A DNA stretch of 16,652 nucleotides from contig MU631452.1 of the NCBI GenBank assembly GCA_026770615.1, forward strand, positions 44,470 to 61,121, written 5' to 3'. Below are positions 1 to 16,652 of the stretch, in pieces. Within the stretch, counting starts at the first letter, position 1. Every line of letters starts with the position of its first letter. The DNA comes from Pavlovales sp. CCMP2436 (taxonomy: Eukaryota > Haptophyta > Pavlovophyceae > Pavlovales). The notes beneath the pieces were generated by a model. That model was given only the letters and a program-made list of their open reading frames with translations. It was not told the origin of the DNA and did not search any database. The position numbers and the translations under genes are program-made.

Positions 1-116
1 ATCGGCTCCCGTAGCTAACTTAAATCAGGATGGCGTGAAATTAAACCGGTTATCTATCTGGTTGCGCCACAATTTTATAAACTGAGTGTTTCCAAACTGG
101 TTTGAGCTCATTTACC
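1..116. other. Left flank, no gene seen
   Basis: No supportable coding region is visible here. The stretch carries the first copy (about 79-103) of a sequence of about 25 bp, AACTGAGTGTTTCCAAACTG, that recurs just beyond the MITE at about 298-322, so the MITE at 119-284 sits between two direct copies. Confidence 0.5.
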
Positions 117-118
117 TA

Positions 119-284
119 CAGGGGATCGCAGGCAATAAGAACGGCGCTTTTTGAGGCTGAGGCTGAGTTTCATAGCAAATTACATACAAACAATGCTTAA
201 ATCTGCTTAATTACATACTAACCATGAAAAAAAAAGAGGCTCAGTTTCTTAACACGACGATTTCTTATTGCCCGCGATCCCCTG
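119..284 (+). mobile_element. MITE copy 1, 166 bp, TA target duplication
   Basis: A short non-coding element with terminal inverted repeats of about 23 bp that begin CAGGGGATCGC and end GCGATCCCCTG. It is flanked by TA dinucleotides at 117-118 and 285-286. Three more copies lie at 2856, 3153 and 8135. The TIR-plus-TA structure is that of Tc1/mariner-type non-autonomous elements, which is family knowledge. No transposase is encoded, so it would depend on one elsewhere. Inside the TIRs the arms share GAGGCTGAG / GAGGCTCAG motifs and TTACATAC repeats around a central AT-rich part. Confidence 0.9.
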
Positions 285-286
285 TA

Positions 287-411
287 TGGCTATTTATGAA
301 CTGAGTGTTTCCAAACTGGTTTTGGTTTTTTACGTATTGAGCTATGCATTTACATAGAGTTTACATTGCTTGTACCGCCGCCACGCGCAGACAAATAACC
401 GTATAAAATTA
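287..411. other. Spacer between MITE 1 and LINE copy A
   Basis: AT-rich, non-coding sequence. It contains the second copy of the direct repeat described at 79-103 and ends in an AT-rich stretch directly against the 3' terminus of LINE copy A. I see no gene. Confidence 0.5.
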
Positions 412-1468: not shown

Positions 1469-1726
1469 GTGTGTAAGTTTCTAGTTAAAGGTCCGTCCCC
1501 GAGGGGATCTTACAGGATCTAAGTGTTGAGAGACACTCAGATCCAGGGATCCACCCCGAGCACACGAATACCGTCCCCACCGCTGATCAGTTCAGACACA
1601 CGACGATCGACAACTGACGACTCTCGACTGGCGCGCTGACCGACCTCCACTGCTCTCCCTCGCGTCGTCTGGAAATGCAGCACCGTCTGCGAGCGCGGCA
1701 CACCTGCGCGACTCACAAAACATTAC
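1469..1726 (+). repeat. 258 bp dispersed repeat (introner-like family), copy 1
   Basis: It begins GTGTGTAAGTTTCTAG and ends AAACATTAC. An inverted copy of the same 258 nt length lies at 8981-9238, and diverged or partial copies lie at 13716, 14652 and 16052. Inside is a conserved hairpin: GGATCTAAGTGT pairs with ACACTCAGATCC at about 1514-1543. The first bases resemble a 5' splice site (GTAAGT). It is nested in LINE copy A between the proline-rich linker and the OTU domain. No open reading frame is conserved between copies, so it appears non-coding. Confidence 0.8.
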
Positions 1727-1814
1727 TTCTTCACTAGCCTGTATCACATATATTGCGATTCTTGCCCTGAGGGACAGAAATCGCAAATATACGCGGCTTT
1801 TCTGCTGGCCCAGT

Positions 1815-2737
1815 CTATCCCACCCCTTGCCGGGGGTGGGCCTCGGGCGCAGGGCTTTGGGATGCAGGAAATCGCGGGCTTGCTGGCTCATGATTGTGTT
1901 TTGGCAACTTTGAGTTTGCTGGCTCATATTTGGTTTTGGGTTTCTTGCCGCCCGAGTGGTGTGTCAGCGTGGTTGACTGGATGGTCTCAAAGGCCCTTTT
2001 GGTAGACGAGCGCATTGTGCGAGGGTAAATTACGTGCATGAATATGACGGCTTGTCCGAACTTAATGCGTGTTTGTTCGACGGGCCTGCTACAGATTCGT
2101 GGTGTATGGTGGGACTAGATGGTCCTGTTTTGGGTTTCTGATGTATAGCGGGACTGGCTGCTCCTGGTAGTGCTGGGGGTGTCGCTCGAGACGGTCTCTT
2201 CTGGATGCGCTTTGGGGGTATGACTCGAAGCGATATTTTCTGGATTTGTTTTTTCACGATTGGTATGCGTAAGCGTGGCTGTCCTCGGTTGGGCCTGAGG
2301 GTGGGCTCAGGCTGCATGGGGGGTATGGTCGGGTCTGCACTTAGGAATGAGGCTTCGTCTGGTAGTGCTGAGGGTGTGACTCGGGACAAGCTCTTCTGGA
2401 TGCGCTTTGAGGGTATGACTCGAGGCGGTCTCTTCTGGATTTGTTTTTTCCCGATTGGTATGCGTAAGCGTGGCTGGCCTCGGCTGGGCCTGAGGGTGGG
2501 CTCAGTCTGCATGGAGGGTATGGTCGGGTCTGCACCTGGGAGTGAGTCTTCGTTATTCGGAGGTTGATTGCGGGTCAAGCGTATTCGTTTGGCAGGAGTT
2601 ATCTGTGTGCTGGTGTCCTTTGGAGGTATGGGCTCATGCTGCATAGGTGATATGGCCGCTGGTAACTCGTTTTGAGCGATGCTGTCCGTTGGGGGTATGG
2701 GTTCGTAATGAATGGGTGGTAAGGATGATGGTACCAT
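1815..2737 (-). pseudogene. Proline-rich linker of LINE copy A with tandem duplications
   Basis: A minus-strand reading frame (2737 to 2030, continued in another frame to 1815) rich in Pro, Arg, Lys and Ser. A 195 bp block is duplicated in frame: 2161-2355 and 2356-2550 encode near-copies containing RGQPRLRIP and PPKRIQK- or PSKRIQK-type motifs, a 65-residue period. Further right, shorter units encode variants of PPIHYEPIPPTDS. Low-complexity basic/proline-rich stretches are common linkers in such elements, but I know no function for this one. Frame changes between 1815 and 2039 show decay. Confidence 0.5.
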
Positions 2738-2855
2738 ATTGTGCTGTCCGTTGGGGGTATGGGTTCGTAATGAATGGGTGGTAAGGATGATGGTACCATA
2801 TTGTTTTGGGCGGTGCTGTCCGTTAGGGGTATGGGCTCATACTGCATAGGTGGTA

Positions 2856-3021
2856 CAGGGGATCGCGGGCAATAAGAACGGCGCTTTTTGAGGCTGAGGC
2901 TGAGTTTCTTAGTGAATTACATAGAAACAATGCTTAAAGTTGCTTAAATTACATACAAACAATGCAAAAAAAGAGGCTCAGTATCTAAACACGACGGTTT
3001 CTTATTGCCCGCGATCCCCTG
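2856..3021 (+). mobile_element. MITE copy 2, 166 bp, TA target duplication
   Basis: TIRs CAGGGGATCGCGGGCAATAA / inverse at the other end, with TA at 2854-2855 and 3022-3023. Joining the flanks gives GCATAGGTGGTATGGCCGC, matching the intact tandem-repeat unit at about 2641-2660 (GCATAGGTGATATGGCCGC). This shows precise insertion at TA with duplication. It is the same family and orientation as copies 1 and 3. Confidence 0.93.
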
Positions 3022-3152
3022 TATGGCCGCTGGTGCTTCTTTTTGGGTGATGTTGTCAGTTGGGGGTATGGGCGCATACTGCATAGGAGGTGAGGCTGAT
3101 GGTTCCTTGTTTTGAGCGATGCTGTCCGTTGGGGGTATGGGCTCGTATTGTA

Positions 3153-3320
3153 CAGGGGATCGCGGGCAATAAGAACGGCGGGTTTTGAGGCTGAGACTAA
3201 GTTTCTTAGCAAATTACATACAAACAATGGTAAAGTTTTGGTTAAAATTACTATTGAAGGGCTAAAAAACGAGGCTCAGTTTCTTTAACACGACGGTTTC
3301 TTATCGCCCGCGATCCCCTG
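3153..3320 (+). mobile_element. MITE copy 3, 168 bp, TA target duplication
   Basis: Same TIRs as the other copies, flanked by TA at 3151-3152 and 3321-3322. Removing the element and one TA restores GTATTGTATAGGTGG, aligned with CATACTGCATAGGTGG in neighbouring units. The internal part is more diverged than in copies 1 and 2 (AAAATTACTATTGAAGGGC near the middle), so it is probably an older or different subtype. Confidence 0.92.
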
Positions 3321-3360
3321 TATAGGTGGTATGGCCGCTGGTGCTGTGTTTTGATTCAGT

Positions 3361-4043
3361 TTCCTTGCTGCCCGCTCAACTGTCTAGGCGGCCCACATGG
3401 CTACCTTAAACTTATACGCGTCGTATATAGATGTAATGTACTTGGTTGACGCCGCTGATGCTTCGATTGCCGCTTCGCGTGATTTGTGCATGCTGAGGCT
3501 GTCGCGTAGGAGAGTGTACCGTAGTGTTAGTCGCCGGGCTTGGGTGCATCACCGGTGTCGACGTCCTTCTTTCTGAGCTCTTCTTTGACACTTAATCCTA
3601 CCCTTCCGGTGAAGTAGTCCGGCCGAGAAAGCATGTGTGTCGCCATTGAATTTGGTTTGGCGGGTCCCAGGCGCTGGGATGGTTCCTTGCAGAGAGAGCG
3701 GTGGAGGTCGTGGCGGTGCTTTTCCGTTGACGAGCACTCGTGGTATAGGTGATGCTTTGTATCTTGTGAGTTGGGAGTGTCTGTGTATTGTTCATGGTGG
3801 CAGCTGAGAACGGCTGCGAACGCGCCAACATCGTGGGTGCTTGCCAAGTTTGTTGCTTTGCGGTGGCTGGGTTGGTGGTGTGGAAGGGTCGATTTCCGTG
3901 TCCAATGGGTCATCCGGGTCGTTTATGGGCTCATCGCCCTTAATGAGCTTGGTTCGTTCGGCATTTAAAGCTTTAGTGGCTGCTAGGAGGACCCCTAGTA
4001 TGGTGCCCGTCTTGTACTCCCAGATTGGGTTCAGTTTGAGCAT
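3361..4043 (-). pseudogene. Linker downstream of the zinc knuckle, LINE copy A (frameshifted)
   Basis: Minus-strand frames continue the knuckle ORF. IWEYKTGTILGVLLAATKAL (about 3978-4037) matches copy B FEYKTGSIQGILLAATSAL, followed by NAERTKLI / VDERTKLI. Further on, THDVGAFAAVL matches copy B THDVNAFYVKL in a different frame, and EAAIEASAASTKYITSIYDA near 3430-3490 still looks coding. The frame changes at least twice, so this copy is not translatable as one protein. Function unknown; it is an alpha-helical, basic linker before the OTU domain. Confidence 0.5.
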
Positions 4044-5104
4044 TCCTCGACTAGCTCCTGGGTCTGTATCGAGACGCTCCCGGCGTGCGCGTCCGGGTGG
4101 CTGAGTGCAGAGTCGGCAATGGCGCGTAATTCCAAGTTGGTGCCGAGTCCTCCGAGTTTTTTCATGATTACGGTATATCGAAGGTCACGTTGGTCGGCGG
4201 TTGCTGGGCAATGTTTCATGATATGTTCGACTGAGTCCGTATCGTCCGCTGGGTTCAGGCTTTTCATGATGCAGAAGGGGCATTTGGTGCTAAGTTTAGG
4301 GCCACCTTCGTAAAGGGTAATATCGAGGAGCTTTGGTTCGTCTCTTGCATGTTCTGTGTTGTAATTCGCGGTGCTTGTCATGTATCGAACGTATGTGTGT
4401 TGGGTAGCCTCTGAGTTTCCCCCCATGGGTGGCCTTAGGGAGGCTGTTGACTCCTTCATCCAGAGGTCGGTTCGGTCTCTTAAGCGGATGGCATGTTTTT
4501 GTGTGCGTCTAGTGAGGTTCCGGGAGTCTTTGCGGGCATGGATGTTCATAGCTTGGGTTCCCGCTTCTTCTATGACTGCCCTGCGGATGGTGGATGGTGC
4601 GTGGTCGATAAAGTTCCCGTCTTTATCTGTGGCGCTGTACCTTGCTGGCGGCCAAGCATATGGGCCCAGGTCGTGAAAGGGGGGTTGGTTCTCCAATGCC
4701 ACTTGTCTGGCGGCCCAGTCAGCGCAGACGTTGAGTGTCACATACACTGCGTCATAGGCTGGCGTTGGTGCTCCTCCTGCCGTGAGTGGTGGTTGTATCT
4801 CATTGGCCTTCTCGTTTGCCTTGGCGATGAGGGCATCGGTTCCCGCGTTGCCAATAATGTAGACTTGGCTGGCCGTGTCGATTCTTGGGTCTTGTATCAG
4901 TGGCCTAAGGAAGGAGTCTGCTTTGTGAGCTTCCTGGTGCTTGAAGCTGTGGGTTTTGCCGGCGTGGGTGTTGCGTGTGAGGAGTTCGCTGAGTCTTCGG
5001 AGTTGTGACTGTCGGTTTGGCGTGGCTATTTCGTCCGTGCCTTGGTGTTGGGGTTGTGAGTCAGTGTTTGCGACTGTGTTGCAGTTGGGGTTTAAGCGCC
5101 ACAA
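4031..5104 (-). pseudogene. RNase H-like plus CCHC zinc-knuckle region of LINE copy A
   Basis: A 357-residue minus-strand frame, the longest in the element. Around residues 140-150 it has LNVCADWAARQVALE, an N-x-x-A-D pattern typical of the last helix of retroelement RNase H. Residues of about 200-240 are basic (RRTQKHAIRLRDRTDLW, ESTASLRPP). Near residue 280 lies CPFC-x15-H-x4-C with a Glu before the His, a knuckle seen at LINE C-termini. Copy B shares the same motifs at 6617-7648. The MWRLNP start is only the first ATG after upstream stops and is probably not the true protein start. It is called a pseudogene because the downstream frames are broken and reverse transcriptase is missing. Confidence 0.6.
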
Positions 5105-5594: not shown

Positions 5595-6461
5595 CTAGGT
5601 TGCGGTTGGTGGTTGTTGGTCGAGGGTGAGTGGTTTGGGTGCTCGGAAGTGTGATCCGATGTCGGTGTGTATGACGCGAGTGGGGATCCGTTCGGTGTCT
5701 GTTTGTCTAGGAGTGTTTAGCAGTGTGATTAGGGAGTATCGGTGTAGTCTCTTTGTGCCCGGTGGTGGTGGTGGCGTTCATTGGCAGCTTTTTTCTAGTG
5801 GCAGAAGGTCAGCTGGGTGTGGTATGGCGGGGGGTGGGCCGTGCGGTGTAGCAGAGATCAGTGTTTGGCAAACTTTCGTTCCTTTGTCCAAATGACGTGT
5901 AATTACTATGTCAATGCGTAGGACGGTGGCTATGCTGTAGAACATGTTGCTGTTTATCCAGGCTTTCTCTCCTTCCTGGTGGTCCATCGACCAAGTGCAT
6001 GTGGTGTCAATATCCCCGTAGGGGTCTGTTGGGTGTTCTGCCGGTCGTCTGATATCCAGGAAATTTGGACGGTCATCGGTAGCGAGCGGGCGTGGGCTAT
6101 AGCTTGCCTGCAAAGGGTCGCTGCTACTTGCGGGTGGCCCGTGCCGTGGCCGTTTATACTCAGGGTGGCGTAAAGATAGAAAGCAGTTCCCGTCGCGGCA
6201 GACGTCCATGTCTTCAAGGCTTACAGTCCTGTAGAGTTGTTTGAGCGCATGAGCCCCCGTTGGTGTCCACGGGATTGTTATAAATCCCCTGTGTTTCTTG
6301 GTCACCTTGCCTGTCGGTTCCTCTTGGGTGCGTTTGCGTTGAGTGGGTTTATTGCTGGTTGGGGTGGGGTTGTCGACGCGGTCTTTCGTTGGGTTGTTGG
6401 GTATCGGCCTCTTAGGTGGATTATTCTGGGGTGAGGTTTTTCTGGGCTGTTCGTTTGGCAC
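5595..6461 (-). pseudogene. OTU-type cysteine protease domain of LINE copy B (frameshifted)
   Basis: The minus strand reads LEDMDVCRDGNCF (about 6180-6220), carrying the OTU D-G-N-C signature. The homologous continuation YLYATLSINGHG and RQAIAHARSLPMTV lies in another frame. The first frame then resumes with FLDIRRPAEHPTDPYGD, WSMDHQ and MFYSIATVLRIDIVITRH. At the end HTDIGSHFRAPKPL fits the catalytic-His segment, ending at TAG 5595-5597. The N-terminal part (6300-6461) is a basic Pro/Thr/Lys linker. At least two frameshifts break it. OTU folds in retroelements are taken to be proteases or deubiquitinases; activity here is unlikely. Confidence 0.65.
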
Positions 6462-6616
6462 CGGGTGCAGGCTGCCTCTTGGGCGGGTTATTTGGTGGTG
6501 GAGTTCCGCTGGGCTGCTCGTTTGGTCGCCTTCTTGTGTGCTTGTTGGGCAGCTGTGCGTGCCTTCAGTTGGAGTTTGCGAAGCTTGACATAGAAGGCGT
6601 TGACATCGTGCGTCTG

Positions 6617-7648
6617 CTAGGTTTCCTGTGTTGTCCTGTCGTGAATGGCCTGGTTATGTCGTAGGGTGTCCTTCTCCTTCGCTATCGCTGTCCATTCCTT
6701 CTGACGGTCTTCCGGGTCGATGGTGGGCGCGGCCCCTATTATGAGCTTGGTGCGTTCGTCGACTAGGGCTGAGGTGGCTGCTAGGAGTATCCCTTGGATA
6801 GAGCCTGTCTTGTACTCGAAGTCTTTGTTTTGCGTTTGGCATTCCCGGACCAGGTCACGGGTCTGTACTGGGACGCTTCCGGCGTAGGCATCAGGGTGGT
6901 TGAGCGTAGAGTCTGCGATGGCATTTAATTCCGGAGTAGGTGCGAGGCCTCGGAATTTGTGCGTGATGGCGTCTCGGCGTTGGTTTCGTTGTTCAGCGGT
7001 TGACGGGCAAGTGATCATGATGTGTTCTAATGAGTCTGTGCCCTCTTCTGGATGCAGGCCTTTCTTGAGGCAGAAGGGGCACTTGGTGCTGAGTTTGGAT
7101 CCTCCTTCGGAGAGTGTAACGTCTAGGAGTTGGGGCTCGTCTCTAGCCCGTTCAGTGTTGCAGCTTAGGGTGCCTGACATGCATCGGATGTATGTGCGTT
7201 GTGTGGCCTCTAAGTTGGCACCGCAGGGTGGTCTTAGGGAGGCAGTTGACTCTTCGGCCCAGAGGTCTGTCCGGTCTTTGATGCGGCTGGCATGTTTTCG
7301 TGCGCGTCTATCGCGGTCTCTGGGATCTTTTTGGATGTGGGCACGAAGTGCATCGGCGCTTGTTTCCTCTATGACCGCCTTGCGTATGGTGGATGGGTGT
7401 GGTCGATGAAAATCCCGTTTTGGTTTGTGGCGCTGTATGGTGCGGGTGGCCAGGCGCATGGGCCTAGGTAGGTCATGGAAGGGGGTTTTCCCCTCGACTG
7501 CTACTTGTCGGGCTGCCCAGTCTGCGCATACGTTCAGTGTCACATGGATTGGGTCGTAGGCTGGTGTGGGTGCTGCTCCGGCCATGGGCGCTGGCTGTGC
7601 CTCAATGGCCTTGGCGATGAGAGCCTTCGTTGTATCAGAGTTGACCAT
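6617..7648 (-). pseudogene. RNase H-like plus CCHC zinc-knuckle region of LINE copy B
   Basis: A 343-residue minus-strand frame parallel to 4031-5104. It has LNVCADWAARQVAVEGK, RKHASRIKDRTDLWAEEST, ASLRPP and DEPQLLDVTLSEGGSKLST. These are followed by the knuckle CPFC-x15-H-x4-C (CPFCLKKGLHPEEGTDSLEH) and TGSIQGILLAATSALVDERT. Residue-level conservation with copy A, while the DNA differs at many third positions, indicates that this was a selected coding region in the parent element. Upstream sequence (7649-7745) has an in-frame stop before the MVNSDTT start. It ends TTQET at 6617, then homology continues into a linker toward the OTU domain. Confidence 0.6.
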
Positions 7649-7745: not shown

Positions 7746-8132
7746 GCTAACTCCCGCCAGTAGACAGCAAACCGCCACTGACGCAGTTTCCATGGGCAAG
7801 GACAGTTCGCTGTGGGATTCGAGGATCAATACCACGCGGAAGAGTCCGCCAGCGACCATCAACTAAAGGAGCACGAAAGCTAGGAAGCGCACCCAGCGAA
7901 ACCCCATGATATCCGCTGCAAAGGTCCGCCTGCCCTGGGGCATGCCAGCATCGGTGATCGCCGTGAGCGCACGTAAAACGCTGTTCTTGTTCTTGGTGAT
8001 CAGCGACCTAGTCTCCCCCACGTCGCCGTCGGTGCGCCTAGATTCGACATGCAATTCTCTATATCTCTCGATGAGCAGCCCCTTCTGGTTGCCGTCGGCC
8101 GACAGCGATGCGGAATATCGCTGCGATAACTC
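7746..8132 (-). pseudogene. Fragment of an unrecognised membrane protein gene
   Basis: The minus-strand frame reads from ELSQRYSASLSADGNQ (just inside MITE 4) through a soluble, charged stretch (RYRELHVESRRTDGD) to two or three hydrophobic segments: VRFLAFVLL, then after one in-frame TAG (7863-7865) LMVAGGLFRVVLIL, then ASVAVCCLLAGVSL. It ends where LINE copy B begins. Hydrophobic segments continuing in frame on both sides of a single stop suggest a once-intact membrane protein truncated by the LINE and flanked by the MITE. I do not recognise the family. It could also be an intron-containing gene in which the TAG lies in an intron. Confidence 0.35.
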
Positions 8133-8134
8133 TA

Positions 8135-8300
8135 CAAGGGATCGTGGGCAATAAGAAACCGTCGTGTTAAGAAACTGAGCCTCTTTTTTTGCATTGTTTG
8201 TATGTAATTTAAACAAATTTGAGTATTGTCTGTATGTAATTTGCTAAGAAACTCAGCCTCAGCCTCAAAAAGCGCCGTTCTTACTGCCCGCGATTCCCTG
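8135..8300 (-). mobile_element. MITE copy 4, 166 bp, inverted relative to copies 1-3
   Basis: The termini CAAGGGATCG and CGATTCCCTG are slightly mutated versions of the family TIRs. TA flanks lie at 8133-8134 and 8301-8302. The internal order (AAACCGTCGTG, then GAGCCTCTTTTTTTGC, then TTGCTAAGAAACTCAGCC) is the reverse complement of copies 1-3. It lies next to the membrane-protein fragment. Confidence 0.9.
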
Positions 8301-8306
8301 TAGACG

Positions 8307-8431: not shown

Positions 8432-8690
8432 AGATGAACCTTGGAGACACTTTAAGACGCAAAATTGAACGGGGAACAGATTCAGTGCTTGGCCCGACAC
8501 CTGATTCCGAAGGGAAGGACATGAACAGAGCCTCCAAAGAGAGGGTGGTATTTTCAGCGCTGAGTCTAAATACCACCCTCACTTTGGAGGCCATCTTCAT
8601 GTCCTTCCCGTCGGAATCAGGTGTCAAATTGAATTACTGAAATTGTTCCCCGTCAAATACTACATTTAGGGGTGCCTCCAAGGTTTCCCC
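8432..8690. mobile_element. Fold-back (long inverted-repeat) element, about 259 bp
   Basis: Two long arms pair around a short centre near 8553-8567. The left arm has ACCTTGGAGACAC, then ACGGGGAACAG, then GACACCTGATTCCGAAGGGA, then GCCTCCAAAGAGAGGGTGGT. The right arm carries the reverse complement of each in mirror order, with scattered mismatches. Such fold-back MITEs are non-coding; open frames read through it (for example 8412-8627) exist on both strands only because of the symmetry. I could not define a clear target-site duplication. Confidence 0.8.
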
Positions 8691-8972: not shown

Positions 8973-8980
8973 ACTTCGAC

Positions 8981-9238
8981 GTAATGTTTGGGATGCGCAA
9001 AGGTGGGCCGCGCTCGCAGACGGTGCTGCATTTTCAAACGACGCGAGGGAGAGCAGTGGAGGTCGGTCAGCGCGCCAGTCGAGAGTCGTCAGTCGTCGAT
9101 CGTCGTGTGGCTGAAGTGATCAGCGGTGGGGACGGTTTCCGTGTGCACGGGGTGGATCCCTGGATGTGAGTGTTTTTTCAACACTTAAATCCAGTGAAAT
9201 CCTCCCGGGGACGGACGTTTAACTAGAAACTTACACAC
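8981..9238 (-). repeat. 258 bp dispersed repeat (introner-like family), copy 2
   Basis: The reverse complement begins GTGTGTAAGTTTCTAG and ends AAACATTAC, the same ends and length as copy 1 (1469-1726). The internal hairpin is kept with changed bases on both sides (GGATTTAAGTGT against ACACTCACATCC). The shared blocks GGGATCCACCCCG, ACGACGATCGAC and GCGCGCTGACCGACC are nearly identical to copy 1. The two copies are inverted and about 7.5 kb apart. Confidence 0.85.
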
Positions 9239-10321: not shown

Positions 10322-11554
10322 ATGCTGCACCTGCAAAGGCAAGTACCCCCTCTCGCAAAAGTGTCGACGAAGGCGTTTTACCTTAAAGACGTGCAGGTGC
10401 GGCGCGCGGTCGCGCCCTTGTTCGCCTGGGAAGGGGGGGAACGATCAGGCGGGTCTTCGGAGCAGAAGGTGACATGGCTCGCCTATGAGGTACGCGACTG
10501 CCACCAGCCTGCCTTACGTGCCTTCTCTCCACTCGTGGCCCCGCTCGCTCGGCTGCGGCCCGGGCCCGGCTCTGCGCCCCCCGAAAAACAACTTCACTCG
10601 GGGCAGCATGGCGGAAGGGGCCCCGAGCTCGGCGCTCGCCCCAGGCGTGCGAGCGCGCAGCTCGAGGCTGCGGCCGAGGCGGCGCTTCCGCCGTTGCTCC
10701 GCACCCTCGCTTACGATCCGCTCCGCACCATCCTCAAACTCCTCGGCGGCGTCGACCTCACGTGCGCCCGGCTCGCGTGCAGGGACTTCCGCGACCACTC
10801 GAGCCCGGCCCTGGAGGCGATGCCCCGCTCAGGCTTCCTCCGCACAAGCACGCTCGCGGTTTTCGCAGTGGAGTGCATGGCCGGATTCTTCGTGGACCCG
10901 CCGCGCATGCTCCGCCTCGCCGCTTCCGTCGGCTGTGTGAGCGTCCTCGAGGAGCTGGTCGACAACCGGCAGTGCGAGCTCACCGCGCGCGCGTGCTCGG
11001 CTGCTGCTGAGAAGGGGCAGCTAGGCGAGCTGACCTGGCTCCACTCGCGCCGCTGCCCGTGGGACATCATCACCTGCTACGAGGCTGCTGATGGAGGGCA
11101 CCTCGAGGTGCTGCGGTACGTGCACGAGCACGGCTGCCCGTGGGATAGCCTCGTATGCTCCGGGGCTGCTTGCGGAGGTCATCTTGAGGTGCTGCGGTAC
11201 GCGCAGGAGCACGGCTGCCCGCTGCACAGCGACACCTGCCGCAATGCTGCTTTCGGAGGATATTTTGAGGTGCTGCGGTACGCGCACGAGCACGGCTGCC
11301 CGTGGGACAGCGACACCTGCTACGCGGCTGCTACGGGAGGGCACCTCGAGGTGCTGCGGTACGCGCACGAGCACAGCTGCCCGTGGCACATCTACACCTG
11401 CGACCGCGCTGCTCGTGAAGGGCACCTCGAGGTGTTGCGGTACGCGCACGAGCACGGCTACCCGATGAATGTGGACAAATGCCGTTCTGCGGCTGAGCAA
11501 AACGGGCACGCTGCGGTGGTGGAGTACTTGAACGCGATGCAGCCGCCCGCATGA
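10322..11554 (+). CDS. F-box-like / ankyrin-repeat protein
   Basis: A single-exon GC-rich frame of 410 residues. Residues of about 128-160 (LAYDPLRTILKLLGGVDLTC, then CRDFRD) resemble an F-box. From about 192 to 407 there are seven or eight repeats, the best five with an exact 27-residue period (GGHLEVLRYAHEHGCPWDSD type; 81 bp in DNA). These short ankyrin-like repeats with a Cys-Pro-Trp turn are widespread in algae and in large DNA viruses infecting them. F-box plus ankyrin proteins usually present targets to an SCF ubiquitin ligase; that role is inference. The start is uncertain: the N-terminal 100 residues look non-domain-like. A better start context (GCAGCATGG, ATG at 10608) is in another frame, so an intron or indel near 10620-10680 is possible. 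The stop is TGA, 11552-11554. Confidence 0.75.
   Translation: MLHLQRQVPPLAKVSTKAFYLKDVQVRRAVAPLFAWEGGERSGGSSEQKVTWLAYEVRDCHQPALRAFSPLVAPLARLRPGPGSAPPEKQLHSGQHGGRGPELGARPRRASAQLEAAAEAALPPLLRTLAYDPLRTILKLLGGVDLTCARLACRDFRDHSSPALEAMPRSGFLRTSTLAVFAVECMAGFFVDPPRMLRLAASVGCVSVLEELVDNRQCELTARACSAAAEKGQLGELTWLHSRRCPWDIITCYEAADGGHLEVLRYVHEHGCPWDSLVCSGAACGGHLEVLRYAQEHGCPLHSDTCRNAAFGGYFEVLRYAHEHGCPWDSDTCYAAATGGHLEVLRYAHEHSCPWHIYTCDRAAREGHLEVLRYAHEHGYPMNVDKCRSAAEQNGHAAVVEYLNAMQPPA
11016..11500 (+). repeat. 81 bp coding tandem repeats in the ankyrin gene
   Basis: Units containing CACCTCGAGGTGCTGCGGTAC-type sequence recur every 81 bp, with GG codon pairs at protein positions 258, 285, 312 and 339 and an EG pair at 366. 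DNA-level similarity between units is high, which implies recent expansion or gene conversion. Confidence 0.85.
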
Positions 11555-12056
11555 TCAGCTGCCGAGCGGCTACGCAGCTCGTGCGTTGCCGCTGCGTCGG
11601 CCGGGTGCACATGCTGCGAATAACGCTCGCTGGCGATGCACGCGCCGACGTGCAGCTGGCCACGCACGTGCTGTCGTCTGATTGAGACCTGGCCGTTTAG
11701 TTATTAAGCGGGGGCAATAACTAATCACGGAATAGGACAGGCTGCGCACGTGCTTATCGGCCCGCGCTCGGCTGTCATTCGCATGCTGCCGAGGATTGGA
11801 TTCGTCCAATCGCATGCCTCCTACTGCTGCATTCCCCGGCGTCGCAAAACTACTGTTAAGGCGTACAGCAGTAGGCACAGGGCTCGCAGCCTTCAGGTAC
11901 GCATCGAGCAGACCTTCGCGGACAGCTACGACAATCTAAATCTTTCTCAACAAGACTCCTTCCTCCCCAGTCTCCGCGCGCCCAACAAGTGAGCAACCGG
12001 TCCGAACTGATTGATTTCGATGGGTACACGAATTACGTTCATATCTTAATATATAT
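11555..12056. other. Intergenic region after the ankyrin gene
   Basis: I see no convincing gene. Sequence just after the stop is GC-rich (to about 11690), then mixed. A frame at 11750-11992 has no recognisable features. No poly(A) signal could be assigned with confidence. Confidence 0.4.
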
Positions 12057-12215
12057 TGACTGATAGGGATTCAAGCTGGCGTCTGACTGTTCTGAATGTT
12101 TTGCTGGTTTGAGCGCTGCGTCGCCCATTGCCTACTGCGTGCCTTAGTCGGCTGCGCTGGCTTGGGCGCCACCGCGCGTGCCGATGGATCTCCGGTAGTG
12201 TGCCCGGCCAAGGGC
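12057..12215 (+). mobile_element. 159 bp element, copy 1
   Basis: It runs from GACTGATAGGGATTC to CGGCCAAGGGC. The reverse complement of 14430-14588 matches it over the full 159 nt with only two differences that I can see (at GGTTTG/GGTCTG and CCTACTG/CCTGCTG). The left side is preceded by AATATATATT; the right side passes directly into coding-like sequence (minus-strand exon). It has no obvious inverted termini, coding capacity or pol III boxes. A further partial copy starts at 16555. Confidence 0.85.
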
Positions 12216-12221
12216 GTTTAG

Positions 12222-13104: not shown

Positions 13105-13206
13105 CAGGAACCGGAGGTGGTGCCGCGGAATTAGCTGCAGATTCGTGAATGGAACCGCCCCATCCACGAATCTGCAACTAACTCCGCGGCACCACTTCGG
13201 GAACCA
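13105..13206. repeat. Hairpin, arms of about 46 bp
   Basis: The left arm (GGAACCGG, GGTGGTGCCGCGGA, TTAGCTGCAGATTCGTG) pairs with the right arm (CACGAATCTGCAACTAA, TCCGCGGCACCACTT, GGGAACC) around a loop of about 6-10 nt (ACCGCC). It lies directly upstream of the damaged ankyrin gene. It is most likely a small fold-back MITE; a single copy in this window prevents confirmation. Confidence 0.75.
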
Positions 13207-13610: not shown

Positions 13611-13711
13611 GATGCTCGTGGAGTGCGCGGTGCTGCCAGGCTGTAGCCGCCGGTGGGCAATTGACAATCCTCAAACGGGCGCGTGCCAACGGGTACAATT
13701 GGGACGAAGAG
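13611..13711 (+). CDS. Internal exon of the ankyrin gene
   Basis: It encodes (G)CSWSARCCQAVAAGGQL and TILKRARANGYNWDEE, that is one repeat of the C-x-W ... AA-x-GG-x-L-x-x-L-x-x-A-R-A-N-G type. Flanks are TTTTATAG | GATGC and GAAGAG | GTGCGT. The reading frame that matters is not the one with the longest open stretch; it is found only by splicing. This piece alone shows no damage, but the exons on both sides have single-base frame errors. Confidence 0.7.
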
Positions 13712-13715
13712 GTGC

Positions 13716-13937
13716 GTGTGTAAATATCTATAAAAAACGTCCGGTCCCGTTCGCGGTCTCCCAGGTAAAACTGGGACCAGCTCCCGAGCCCCCGGATACC
13801 GTCCTCCACGCTAAGACTGATCAGACACACGACTGTCAACGAAACTCGACTTGCGCTCTGATCAACCTCTGCTGCATCTCGCTCGTCTCGAAAAGCGGCT
13901 CGCCTGCACACGGCAACGCACCTGCAGCACATAATAC
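13716..13937 (+). repeat. Introner-like repeat, copy 3 (diverged)
   Basis: It starts GTGTGTAAATATCTA four bases inside the intron and has ACGTCCGGTCCC, a hairpin (GGTCTCCCAG / CTGGGACC), GGATACCGTCC, CTGATCAGACACACGAC and an end like CACATAATAC. The block order is the same as copies 1 and 2 but with many differences, so it is an old copy. Confidence 0.65.
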
Positions 13938-14061
13938 AGGCAGCCCCCCCCCCACCCCACCCCCCCTCCCACCCTCTCCTTGTTTGTCAGTTGCTCTACT
14001 AAATTTCTCGTGTCGCCTCGAAGTGTGTCATGTTGGCGTCGATGATGAGTACGCATATTTA

Positions 14062-14301
14062 TCAGCCTTGCACGCTGCGCGATGCCGTGAGCAATTTGCC
14101 GAGGGTCTTATTCTGCCGTGTTCTGCCTCCTGTAGTAGTTCTGTGTATCCATGTGGTACTGCCGATCCGCGGTTGGTGCGAGGTGTATGCGTAATATAGG
14201 TCGATAATGTCACCCACTTTGTCGGGGTCTCTGCTTAGTTTCAGCACCGCGATGTCTGTTACCATGACTGTCGTTATGCTGTGGAGAATGTTATCTGACA
14301 T
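14062..14301 (-). pseudogene. Possible fragment of an OTU/LINE-related reading frame
   Basis: The minus strand reads MSDNILHSITTVMVTDIAV, then KLSRDPDKVGDIIDLYYAY. It is loosely comparable with FYSIATVLRIDIVI of the OTU domains in copies A and B. Similarity is limited to this pattern and the C-terminal His motif is not clear, so this may be a diverged LINE remnant inside the intron or chance. Confidence 0.25.
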
Positions 14302-14409
14302 TCATGCGACCTGGTTCGCTGAGAAGTGAGGAAGGCCGTGTTTTGCCTGCGCTGCTATTGGCCAGAAGTTTCGTCGCTTACTATGGTGTAGGTCATTCCC
14401 CATGTGCGT

Positions 14410-14429
14410 GTATATATATATATATATAT
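14410..14429 (+). repeat. (TA)n microsatellite, left of the 159 bp element
   Basis: About ten TA units. A second run (14589-14607) lies on the far side of the 159 bp element, as if the element had inserted into one longer (TA)n tract. Confidence 0.9.
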
Positions 14430-14588
14430 GCCCTTGGCCGGGCACACTACCGGAGATCCATCGGCACGCGCGGTGGCGCCCAAGCCAGCGCAGCCGACTA
14501 AGGCACGCAGCAGGCAATGGGCGACGCAGCGCTCAGACCAGCAAAACATTCAGAACAGTCAGACGCCAGCTTGAATCCCTATCAGTCA
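14430..14588 (-). mobile_element. 159 bp element, copy 2, inside (TA)n
   Basis: The reverse complement of 12057-12215, 159 nt with about two differences. It is flanked on both sides by (TA)n. Near-identity indicates recent movement or duplication. Micron elements of rice are a known case of microsatellite-targeting MITEs; relation to them is not implied. Confidence 0.88.
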
Positions 14589-14607
14589 ATATATATATAT
14601 ATATATA
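14589..14607 (+). repeat. (AT)n microsatellite, right of the 159 bp element
   Basis: The second half of the split TA/AT tract described at 14410-14429. Confidence 0.9.
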
Positions 14608-14651
14608 GCGGCTCAGCATGGTTCTATAAATACCATGTACTGAATCTAGAA

Positions 14652-14818
14652 GTAAATATCTAGGATTACGTCCGTCCCCTGACAGGTCTCCACCGGACCC
14701 AAGCGTTGAGAAACACACGGATCAAGGAACCTTTTCAGAGCACGCGGATATCCTCCCCACCACAGAGGCGCGCTATGTATTCAACACACACTTTTTTTCT
14801 TTTTTTTATCGACGACAG
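14652..14818 (+). repeat. Introner-like repeat, copy 4, ending at a splice acceptor
   Basis: GTAAATATCTAGGATTACGT, CCGTCCCCTGACAGGTCTCC, a hairpin (GGACCCAAGCGTT / AACACACGGATCA-type), GAGCACGCGGATATCC, ACACACAC, a T-run, then ATCGACGACAG, where the intron ends. In copies 1 and 2 the corresponding bases are ATCGACAACTG and ATCGACGACTG, so a single T-to-A change would make the AG acceptor. Confidence 0.7.
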
Positions 14819-15165
14819 GTCTGCGTTGGCGCCGCTCGATTTGGCATTTGGCCGTTCTGAAGTGGGCACTTGCCAACGGCTCCGAATGGGACGAAGACAC
14901 CATCAGGGCTGCCGTGCGAGGTCGGCACTTGGATGTGCTGCAGTGGGCGTGTGCCAACGGTTGCGAGTGGGGCTCGCTCACGGTCGCTCGTGCTCGCAAC
15001 AGGGATCTCATCGTCCAGCGTGGGCTTGCGTTGAAGCTGGATGCACGGGTCCCGCAAGTCCCAACTCCCGCGTGCGGCGCCGGCGGGTGGCCAAGTTGCA
15101 GTGTTATTTTACACGGGCGCCTAATAACTAAGTTACAGACAGTCGAATTAGCGACAAGCGCGTAG
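14819..15165 (+). pseudogene. 3' exon of the ankyrin gene (one-base deletion)
   Basis: After the acceptor the frame reads VCVGAARFG, then needs one extra base at 14844/14845 to continue HLAVLKWALANGSEWDED, AAVRGRHLDVLQWACANG and CEWGSLTVARARN, ending at TAG 15163-15165. As it stands, translation would hit TGA within a few codons. Together with the frame break near 13450 this argues for a pseudogene, though two sequence errors would give the same picture. The last repeat decays into a non-repeat C-terminal tail (VQRGLALKLDARVPQV). Confidence 0.65.
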
Positions 15166-15583
15166 GGAGGGGCTTTCAAAATGACGCGCAACGGCAATGT
15201 ACGTAAATTACTATCGTAAATGCCAGTTTATTGCGCAGCAAAAAAAGGTTCAGTGTTTGGCTAGCGAGCAGGACCAGCGTAATACCGGACTTGCAAGTTG
15301 CAATGAACTCAAAAAATGCAGTTACTTTGTGAGCTCCGTCCAGTTCAGAATTGCACTTGCGCTCGACTCTACGCTGCGTCTGCTCGCCAACTTCAGTCTA
15401 TTGATTAATTGAAGACTTTTGAGCTCAACCACTCTGCGAGGCGTCCCTTTGCGCAGCATCCGTCAAAATATGCACCCCCCCCCCCTTCAATACTTATGCA
15501 TCCGTCAAATGTGGTTTCACGCCCGGTGTCGAAGTCCACCCACTGTGGTCGGTGCCAGCGAGTTGCCGCCCCGACCGCCCACG
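15166..15583. other. Intergenic region between ankyrin and thioesterase genes
   Basis: No gene seen. 15409-15490 holds a partial copy of the SINE-like repeat (CTCTGCGAGGC, CCCTTTGCGCAGCATCCGTC, poly-C), and ATGCATCCGTCAAAT follows as a short echo. The promoter of the thioesterase gene should lie here, but I see no clear TATA box or initiator. Confidence 0.4.
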
Positions 15584-15760
15584 ATGCTGCTCGTGATCCT
15601 CGCCCTGGGCGGCACAAGCGCCCTCCGTCCCGAGGAGAAGCTGGTCGAGAAGCTGGCCGAGCTCGTCGGGCAGGACCACTCGCTGCACGCTCCTGTCATC
15701 TCGCTCAAGCGCGCGCTCGTCAGCCCGGCCGAGTCGGCCGACGCAACGCCGGTCGTCTTC
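15584..15760 (+). CDS. PPT1: Palmitoyl-protein thioesterase 1-like, exon 1
   Basis: 59 residues starting at ATG 15584. MLLVILALGGTSAL is a clear signal peptide, then a charged helix (RPEEKLVEKLAELVG), then SADATPVVF. It joins in phase 0 to exon 2 (MHGMGDAG), giving PVVFMHGMGD, the conserved N-terminal strand and oxyanion region of palmitoyl-protein thioesterases. These lysosomal or vacuolar enzymes remove fatty acids from S-acylated proteins during turnover. The leader fits entry into the secretory pathway. Donor: TTC | GTGCGT. Upstream in-frame sequence without a stop exists, but the signal peptide decides the start. Confidence 0.8.
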
Positions 15761-15970
15761 GTGCGTCGCTGCCCTATGCCACTCGACGCTTTGCTGCCTT
15801 GCACGCCGATGCCATTGCCGTGTGTCCTGTGTCTGTGCCCGATGTATACTTGAACTTACAGGCTAACCTACCTCCCTTTTCTCACTCCCCCCCTCTCTCT
15901 CCTCCCTTTGTTGCACCCGTCACTGGCCTGTTCACACCCACCACTGTCACTCTCCACCACCCACCACCAG
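15761..15970 (+). other. Intron 1 of the thioesterase gene, 210 bp
   Basis: GTGCGT donor (the same hexamer as the large ankyrin intron) and a pyrimidine-rich 3' half ending CACCACCAG at 15970. Splicing restores the continuous PVVF-MHGMGD motif in phase 0. Confidence 0.85.
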
Positions 15971-16051
15971 ATGCACGGCATGGGGGACGCAGGCCCGAAC
16001 CCGGGCATGCAATCCCTCGCACGGTCAGTGAGTGAGATGTACCCACAAAAG
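15971..16051 (+). CDS. PPT1: Palmitoyl-protein thioesterase 1-like, exon 2
   Basis: 27 residues, MHGMGDAGPNPGMQSLARSV then SEMYPQK. HGMGD with N-P-x-M-x-S downstream is the family's N-terminal signature; the catalytic Ser, Asp and His of the alpha/beta-hydrolase fold would be in later exons. Exon 3, expected to begin with YV-type sequence, is not found before 16652, so the gene continues beyond the window or is broken. Donor AAG | GTGTGTAAATATC is itself the first base of an introner-like repeat copy. Confidence 0.82.
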
Positions 16052-16190
16052 GTGTGTAAATATCTAGAAATACGTCCGTCCCCTGACAGGTCTCCACATG
16101 ACCCAAGCGTTTAGAAAACACTCGGATCATGGGACCTCAGCAGAGCACACGGATACCGCCACCACCGCTTAGACACGCCATTGGCTCATA
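16052..16190 (+). repeat. Introner-like repeat, copy 5, at a splice donor
   Basis: It begins exactly at the inferred exon 2 donor of the thioesterase gene: GTGTGTAAATATCTAG, ACGTCCGTCCCCTGACAGG, hairpin (TGACCCAAGCGTTT / AAACACTCGGATCA), GAGCACACGGATACCG. It is closest to copy 4. The 3' part of the longer family members is not recognisable after about 16190. Confidence 0.75.
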
Positions 16191-16490: not shown

Positions 16491-16554
16491 ATAGCTATAC
16501 AGGATGAACGTATTACACTGACCCTGGCCCGGGGCACCTGACAAGGCATATTTC

Positions 16555-16652
16555 AGGTAGGGATTCAAGCTGGCGTCTGACTGTTCTGAATGTTGTGCTG
16601 GTCTGAGCGCTGATAGGGATCCAAGCTGGCGTCTGACTGTTCTGAATGTTGT
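16555..16652 (+). repeat. Tandem head of the 159 bp element, 56 bp units
   Basis: TAGGGATTCAAGCTGGCGTC begins at 16558 and again (with one change) at 16614, period 56 bp; the second unit is cut by the window end. The same unit is the first third of the 159 bp elements at 12057 and 14588 (minus), where it occurs once. The head can therefore be multiplied. Confidence 0.85.

Follow-up and report, generated by a model that had tools for sequence, protein, structure and literature searches.

How new spliceosomal introns originate is a long-standing question, and it is raised anew by a stretch of DNA from the haptophyte Pavlovales sp. CCMP2436 (16,652 nucleotides (nt); contig MU631452.1, positions 44,470 to 61,121; hereafter the window), in which copies of one repeat family begin at, or 4 nt beyond, the ends of exons of two genes. 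Can a mobile element provide host genes with 5' splice sites or even with entire introns? The original prediction considered the family a candidate introner, that is, a mobile element that brings its own splice sites. This stood as far as the end of a mobile element does give a 5' splice site, as indicated by the thioesterase and LrgAB proteins and by Pfam-supported exon ends. The source, however, appears to be the antisense 3' end of a LINE-like (long interspersed nuclear element) retrotransposon that encodes a reverse transcriptase (RT), not a 258-nt unit, and the copy in the ankyrin gene of the window lies in an existing donor. We consider it probable that this is an introner-like LINE, the antisense end of which is a 5' splice site, with some insertions making introns and others taking over donors. 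The use of the fixed end of the element (the tip) as a donor is well supported, the creation of introns in the Myb and LrgAB genes is likely, and the scale of either process is small.

Repeat tips at exon ends of host genes

In the window, a repeat tip coincides with the donor of intron 2 of a palmitoyl-protein thioesterase gene. After exon 2, the protein P0024 (257 amino acids, on a 1070-nt Joint Genome Institute (JGI) contig) continues as SVSEMYPQK/YSIAVSVADG, whereas the genome instead runs into the element (GTGTGTAAA). Because P0024 leaves the genome sequence exactly at this point, 16051/16052 is a used donor, so that the exon end and the start of the repeat at 16052 are where they had been predicted. 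The protein P0023, which comes from a different source and carries PF02089, agrees with this joint. Of P0024, the assembly yielded the first 29 residues and no more; the 1479 nt that follow the window (L091; 61122-62600 of C146) consist of N, either masked or a gap, and the gene is lost there.

The second case is the LrgAB gene (L063, C373), which in the genome consists of four blocks over 2.8 kb. Removal of two introns that start with the element predicted a stretch of 442 residues, and P0010 (515 amino acids, longest contig 1819 nt) is identical to this prediction over 442/442 residues. Given their lengths, we infer that the P0024 and P0010 contigs are cDNA; these short JGI contigs lack the introns, which indicates that the element introns are spliced. 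Intron 1 starts with GTGA followed by the tip, with the used GT located 4 nt upstream of the tip. In intron 2, which is 156 nt long and consists almost entirely of the element, the tip is at the exon edge; CCAAG precedes and GTG follows both joints (CCAAGGTG), and this GTG also belongs to the tip of the element.

Pfam-supported exons end at the tip also in the genes for SIR2, DapF (DAP epimerase) and ETF alpha. In DapF, a 190-nt element intron separates the two sides of an in-frame joint, TADGMVK/VDMGEP, and in ETF alpha, a 249-nt element intron does so at AVGIS/GAIQHL. The LrgA, Myb and Cyt-b5 domains scored above the Pfam cut-off, and the LrgB exon just below it. Wherever the splice sites were seen, the element introns use GT-AG. 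Similarity among copies reaches the 5' splice boundary in unrelated genes (thioesterase, LrgAB intron 2, DapF, SIR2 and ETF alpha); LrgAB intron 2 and Myb are the only cases in which it nearly extends to the 3' boundary.

Duplications at intron edges were examined in Myb, LrgAB intron 2, ankyrin, cytochrome b5, DapF and ETF alpha. In the Myb gene (L032), GGTGCGT flanks the intron on both sides; its downstream copy is coding, and joining the exons yields an unbroken Myb domain. The intron holds another, nested repeat that splits the element copy. In both Myb and LrgAB intron 2, the duplications flank the whole intron, as would be expected of introns made by insertion. Short target duplications that could form the splice sites are seen in these two introns; those in the window ankyrin gene and in cytochrome b5 contain an older donor.

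Intron creation or capture of existing donors

The searched genome comprises 119.35 Mb in 703 contigs. A search for the exact tip GTGTGTAARTWTCTA gave 777 matches (382+395) compared to 0 for the reversed-pattern control, so its presence is not due to chance; the longer form GTGTAARTWTCTAKNNANACGTCCG gave 561 (control, 0). AAG or CAG directly precedes 24 of the 777 tips (3.1%), and most tips are not at splice junctions, so that the placement of GT at the exon boundary does not extend to the family at large. We inspected 19 of these 24 sites (thioesterase, LrgAB, L044 and 16 fetched flanks), and 12 of the 19 resemble exon ends, two by a cDNA-like protein, three by Pfam, one by a weak Pfam match (FHA, E 0.049, below the cut-off) and six by the frame only. 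Tips of the form AAATATCTA are present at 22/24 AAG/CAG sites vs 55 of the first 100 listed tips (hand count; p 5e-4, uncorrected for relatedness). Open frames that span 39 or more codons and have a G+C content at third codon positions (GC3) of at least 0.80 end at 7/16 AAG/CAG tips vs 4/101 other tips (p 6e-5); with GC3 of 0.75, the counts are 7/16 vs 9/101, and with 0.70, 9/16 vs 18/101. Of the four frames at other tips that pass 0.80, three belong to Myb, cytochrome b5 and LrgAB. At least three of the 101 flanks, which were unselected for gene context, contain an exon that has Pfam support and ends where the copy begins, a lower bound because Pfam was run on these three. As a rough guess, 2-4% of the copies are located at exon ends.

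Several observations weigh against the creation of introns by an introner-like LINE. The AAG/CAG share is that expected from the base composition of the flanks, and 6 of the 16 fetched AAG/CAG sites, as well as L044, showed no good exon. The frame measure is loose because antisense frames also pass GC3 of 0.80, at 3/16 AAG/CAG and 5/101 other tips. A blind scan for duplications at AG yielded 2/119 copies vs 33/2380 control positions, that is, no excess; the two copies are those in Myb and LrgAB, so that these two cases of creation rest on acceptors fixed by a cDNA-like protein or by a protein family. The LINE-like class assignment comes from partial copies. In a scan without a control, the best duplication was 6-15 bp long in 13/89 loci, and part of these are certainly chance matches or consensus ends. 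No convincing duplication was found at the intron edges of DapF and ETF alpha. In cytochrome b5 (L056), the domain is not resumed in the 900 nt read after the second GGTGCGT; this copy is an insertion into an existing intron, with a duplication that contains the older donor. Likewise, the 13716 copy in the window went into an existing ankyrin intron, within an older donor: the donor must predate the copy because the second GTGCGTGT precedes TATATA.

The ankyrin exon end at 13711, with the repeat copy 4 nt further in, was found as predicted. The predicted acceptor fared less well: downstream of 14818/14819, the first nine residues (VCVGAARFG) fit the repeat, but a one-base frame change is then required, so the gene may be damaged or misassembled.

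The principal alternative is that the LINE makes no introns at all and that the exon-adjacent copies inserted into the starts of existing introns, with the tip still serving as the donor. The ankyrin and cytochrome b5 genes are such cases, and both the lack of clear duplications in DapF and ETF alpha and the lack of excess in the blind scan agree with this scenario. Nevertheless, we regard it as unlikely to be the whole explanation, given that the downstream duplications in Myb and LrgAB intron 2 are coding and lie right at the exon start, and that LrgAB intron 2 has hardly any sequence other than the element in its 156 nt.

Identity of the repeat family

The related copies predicted at 1469(+), 9238(-), 13716(+), 14652(+) and 16052(+) were all found again and fall into three subfamilies, A (1469 and 9238), B (14652 and 16052) and C (13716) (Table 1). 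First-look searches of the genome gave 1340, 1436 and 721 candidates for A, B and C, respectively (overlapping sets, not copy numbers), and 469 for an additional subfamily represented in LrgAB intron 2. The tip is fixed among the aligned copies, although that of the 14652 copy has decayed to AGAAGTAAATATC, whereas the far ends lie at many different lengths, anywhere from ~110 nt to more than 900 nt, with a few weaker alignments ending earlier. The 258 nt originally taken for the full length of the element, and for a length shared by the 1469 and 9238 copies, did not hold: the consensus of subfamilies A and C stays clear to ~800-900 nt, and the 1469 copy matches its consensus to at least 909 nt, compared to ~259 nt for the 9238 copy. 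The 1469 copy is interrupted by MITE-like (miniature inverted-repeat transposable element) inserts. Four copies of a MITE-like element of ~170 nt with 25-nt terminal inverted repeats (TACAGGGGATCGCGGGCAATAAGAA) are present in the window (116-290, 2853-3027, 3150-3326 and 8126-8303), two of them inside the subfamily A copy.

Table 1. Repeat copies, exons and target duplications in the window
Feature	Coordinates	Strand	Basis or remark
Subfamily A copy	1469..5104	coding strand minus, 3' end (tip) at 1469	continuity past ~2380 presumed
Open reading frame with relatives in RT elements, inside the 1469 subfamily A copy	4031-5104	minus	
Subfamily A copy	8980..9238	minus, tip at 9238	alignment; ends at ~259 nt
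Ankyrin-like exon end (…RANGYNWDEE)	13656..13711	+	repeat D17, translation
Target duplication, upstream copy GTGCGTGT; contains donor GTGCGT, 4-nt overlap with element tip	13712..13719	+	
Subfamily C copy, truncated, antisense, in donor region of ankyrin-repeat gene intron	13716..14403	+	
Target duplication, downstream copy GTGCGTGT, then non-coding TATATATA	14404..14411	+	
Subfamily B copy, decayed tip, same intron as 13716 copy	14652..14769	+	aligned part only
Next ankyrin-like exon, frame change needed soon after start	14819..15000	+	
Visible part of thioesterase exon 1 (…TPVVF), followed by host donor GTGCGT	15584..15760	+	alignment to P0023
Palmitoyl-protein thioesterase exon 2 (MHGMGDAGPNPGMQSLARSVSEMYPQK)	15971..16051	+	P0024 identical over 27 residues
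Subfamily B copy, short, putative truncated antisense retrotransposon 3' end; tip is thioesterase intron 2 donor	16052..16172	+	

The GTGTGTAA end is read as the antisense 3' end of a LINE-like element because of the open reading frames (ORFs) on the opposite strand, the order of RVT_1 and these ORFs, and the arrangement of tips relative to RVT_1. Long open frames run on the strand opposite to that on which the tip is read. The window ORF at 4031-5104 has nine relatives, the closest in pavlovophyte haptophytes; five, with 58-84% identity in the matched portion, are hypothetical proteins from Pavlovales sp. CCMP2436, and for one CCMP2436 protein (P0002), the genome matches reach at most 93% among the matches listed. 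From 72 of the 90 genome matches to one relative protein (18 secondary pieces dropped) and 150 of 151 genome matches to RVT_1, 13 pairs were located within 5 kb among the matches listed, and in 13/13, RVT_1 lies 5' of the C-terminal ORF on the same strand. For 205 tips, 25 tip/RVT_1 pairs lie within 7 kb, 13 with the tip where the 3' end is expected and 5, 4 and 3 in the other arrangements. One complete series, RVT_1, C-terminal ORF, tip, is present on C4. The RT is assigned to the element by the position of RVT_1 only. In the copy alignments, truncation is at the 5' side and the 3' end is fixed, as in LINEs. Clear target duplications were found in L054 (14 bp) and in the window (8 bp).

Searches with the element ORFs were otherwise negative: Pfam gave nothing convincing in the element ORFs among seven window ORFs (ankyrin repeats were detected in 10322-11554) and no match for one C-subfamily ORF and three relatives, and a PDB search with the element ORF gave no match at E <= 1. 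An exon peptide gave a single weak PDB match (E 0.086), which was set aside. The DGNC and CPFC motifs of the element ORFs, which we take to be OTU-like and zinc motifs, respectively, have no Pfam match.

A fixed-length DNA-transposon introner of the MITE type, as a 258-nt unit would imply, is very improbable: two window copies do look ~258 nt long, and most families in a survey of introners bear DNA-transposon signs (PMC9860276), but the consensus extends past 258 nt with many end points, and the opposite-strand ORFs and RVT_1 are in register; no search was aimed at terminal inverted repeats of these copies. Mere coincidence, with a few copies of a common repeat starting with GT lying beside exons by chance, is hardly credible despite an overall AAG/CAG share that equals base composition, being contradicted for two genes by protein-level joints at the tip or 4 nt before it and disfavoured by the excess of high-GC3 frames (7/16 vs 4/101) and by the DapF and ETF alpha exons, which join in frame on either side of the element.

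Proposed mechanism and relation to known introners

Under the introner-like LINE scenario, the repeats would be truncated copies of a target-primed retrotransposon, the coding strand of which ends with ...TAGATATTTACACAC; the opposite strand then reads GTGTGTAAATATCTA, which the host spliceosome uses as a donor, as proteins support for three introns. With its 3' end (..CACAC), the element RNA could pair with a nick primer ending in GTG, and cDNA synthesis would write ..GTG+TGTAAATATC onto the target. Insertion at an exonic AG/GTG would rebuild a donor, as would insertion into a donor that was already there, for example GGTGCGT; truncation would end the copy, and the target duplication would give AG/G or G as the acceptor and exon start, with the C-rich antisense sequence possibly serving as the pyrimidine tract. 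Splicing would then restore the coding sequence. Most insertions lie elsewhere; of those at exon ends, some would be new introns (Myb, LrgAB intron 2) and others are captured older ones (window ankyrin, cytochrome b5). Three features suggest the priming step: the sequence of the tip, the preferred target and the duplications. Among 101 flanks, a weak preference precedes GTGTAA (T at -7 and -5, G at -4, A/T at -3, GT at -2/-1). The tips of L035 and L051 are preceded by a GT microsatellite, which fits priming on GT-rich ends, and the flank before the L050 tip contains a 20-nt palindrome built from the tip sequence (GTAAATATCTAGATATTTAC), which looks like a head-to-head meeting of two tips. More tentatively, and with somewhat less than an even chance in our view, a single RT machinery with ..CACAC/GTG priming both makes introns and replaces donors, with a short subfamily of the LrgAB/DapF/SIR2 type, prone to forming introns, spreading in coding exons.

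The features shared with LINEs and other non-LTR (lacking long terminal repeats) retrotransposons are the RT domain in register, the fixed 3' end, the many truncation points and, in some copies, apparent short variable duplications; the difference is that here the antisense 3' end also serves some host exons as their working 5' splice site. Among introner-bearing lineages, Chrysochromulina is a haptophyte, and dinoflagellate introners have reportedly been described by Roy et al. in 2023. According to Gozashti et al. 2022 (PMC9860276), introner families and other documented intron-making elements are mostly DNA transposons, whereas the ascomycete ones are of an RNA type without duplications, and the fungal elements are argued to be RNA-borne. 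The same text describes, as here, similar introns in unrelated genes and insertion of transposable elements with target duplications giving splice sites and, in Chrysochromulina, an element that brings the 5' splice site while the target gives the 3' site. Compared to the introners in that text, the present family differs in that it appears to be the variably truncated antisense 3' end of an RT-encoding element, most copies of which are outside splice junctions. The introner elements of Amoebophrya (PMC7789003) are likewise repeated introns with short direct repeats at exon edges but possess inverted repeats, and their splice sites are often non-canonical, unlike the GT-AG seen here. We found no LINE-derived introner in the literature covered, which includes the accessible text of PMC9860276, PMC7789003, PMC11782384 and PMC11453091 and leaves out most subscription journals. 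If the proposed mechanism is correct, target-primed reverse transcription that builds a donor would be a third, testable route to introns, and one mechanism would explain insertions both in exons and in existing donors.

The window harbors additional repeats. An Rfam scan at E <= 0.5 gave no match on the repeat family and three microRNA-family matches, all under the gathering score. Such sub-threshold matches fall on two near-perfect long hairpins, at 8496-8625 (58-nt arms, 91%) and 13111-13201 (42-nt arms, 88%). The segments 12041-12220 and 14425-14604 form a 180-nt inverted pair (96% complementary), to which a 41-nt unit recurring at 16554-16650 is related. Another repeat, starting with ATGACGTGCGCTCTGCGCAGCTCGCC, has copies at ~413, 5434, 8760 and 16357 and may represent the 3' end of another LINE-like family, to which minus-strand ORFs at 5778-7648 would belong.

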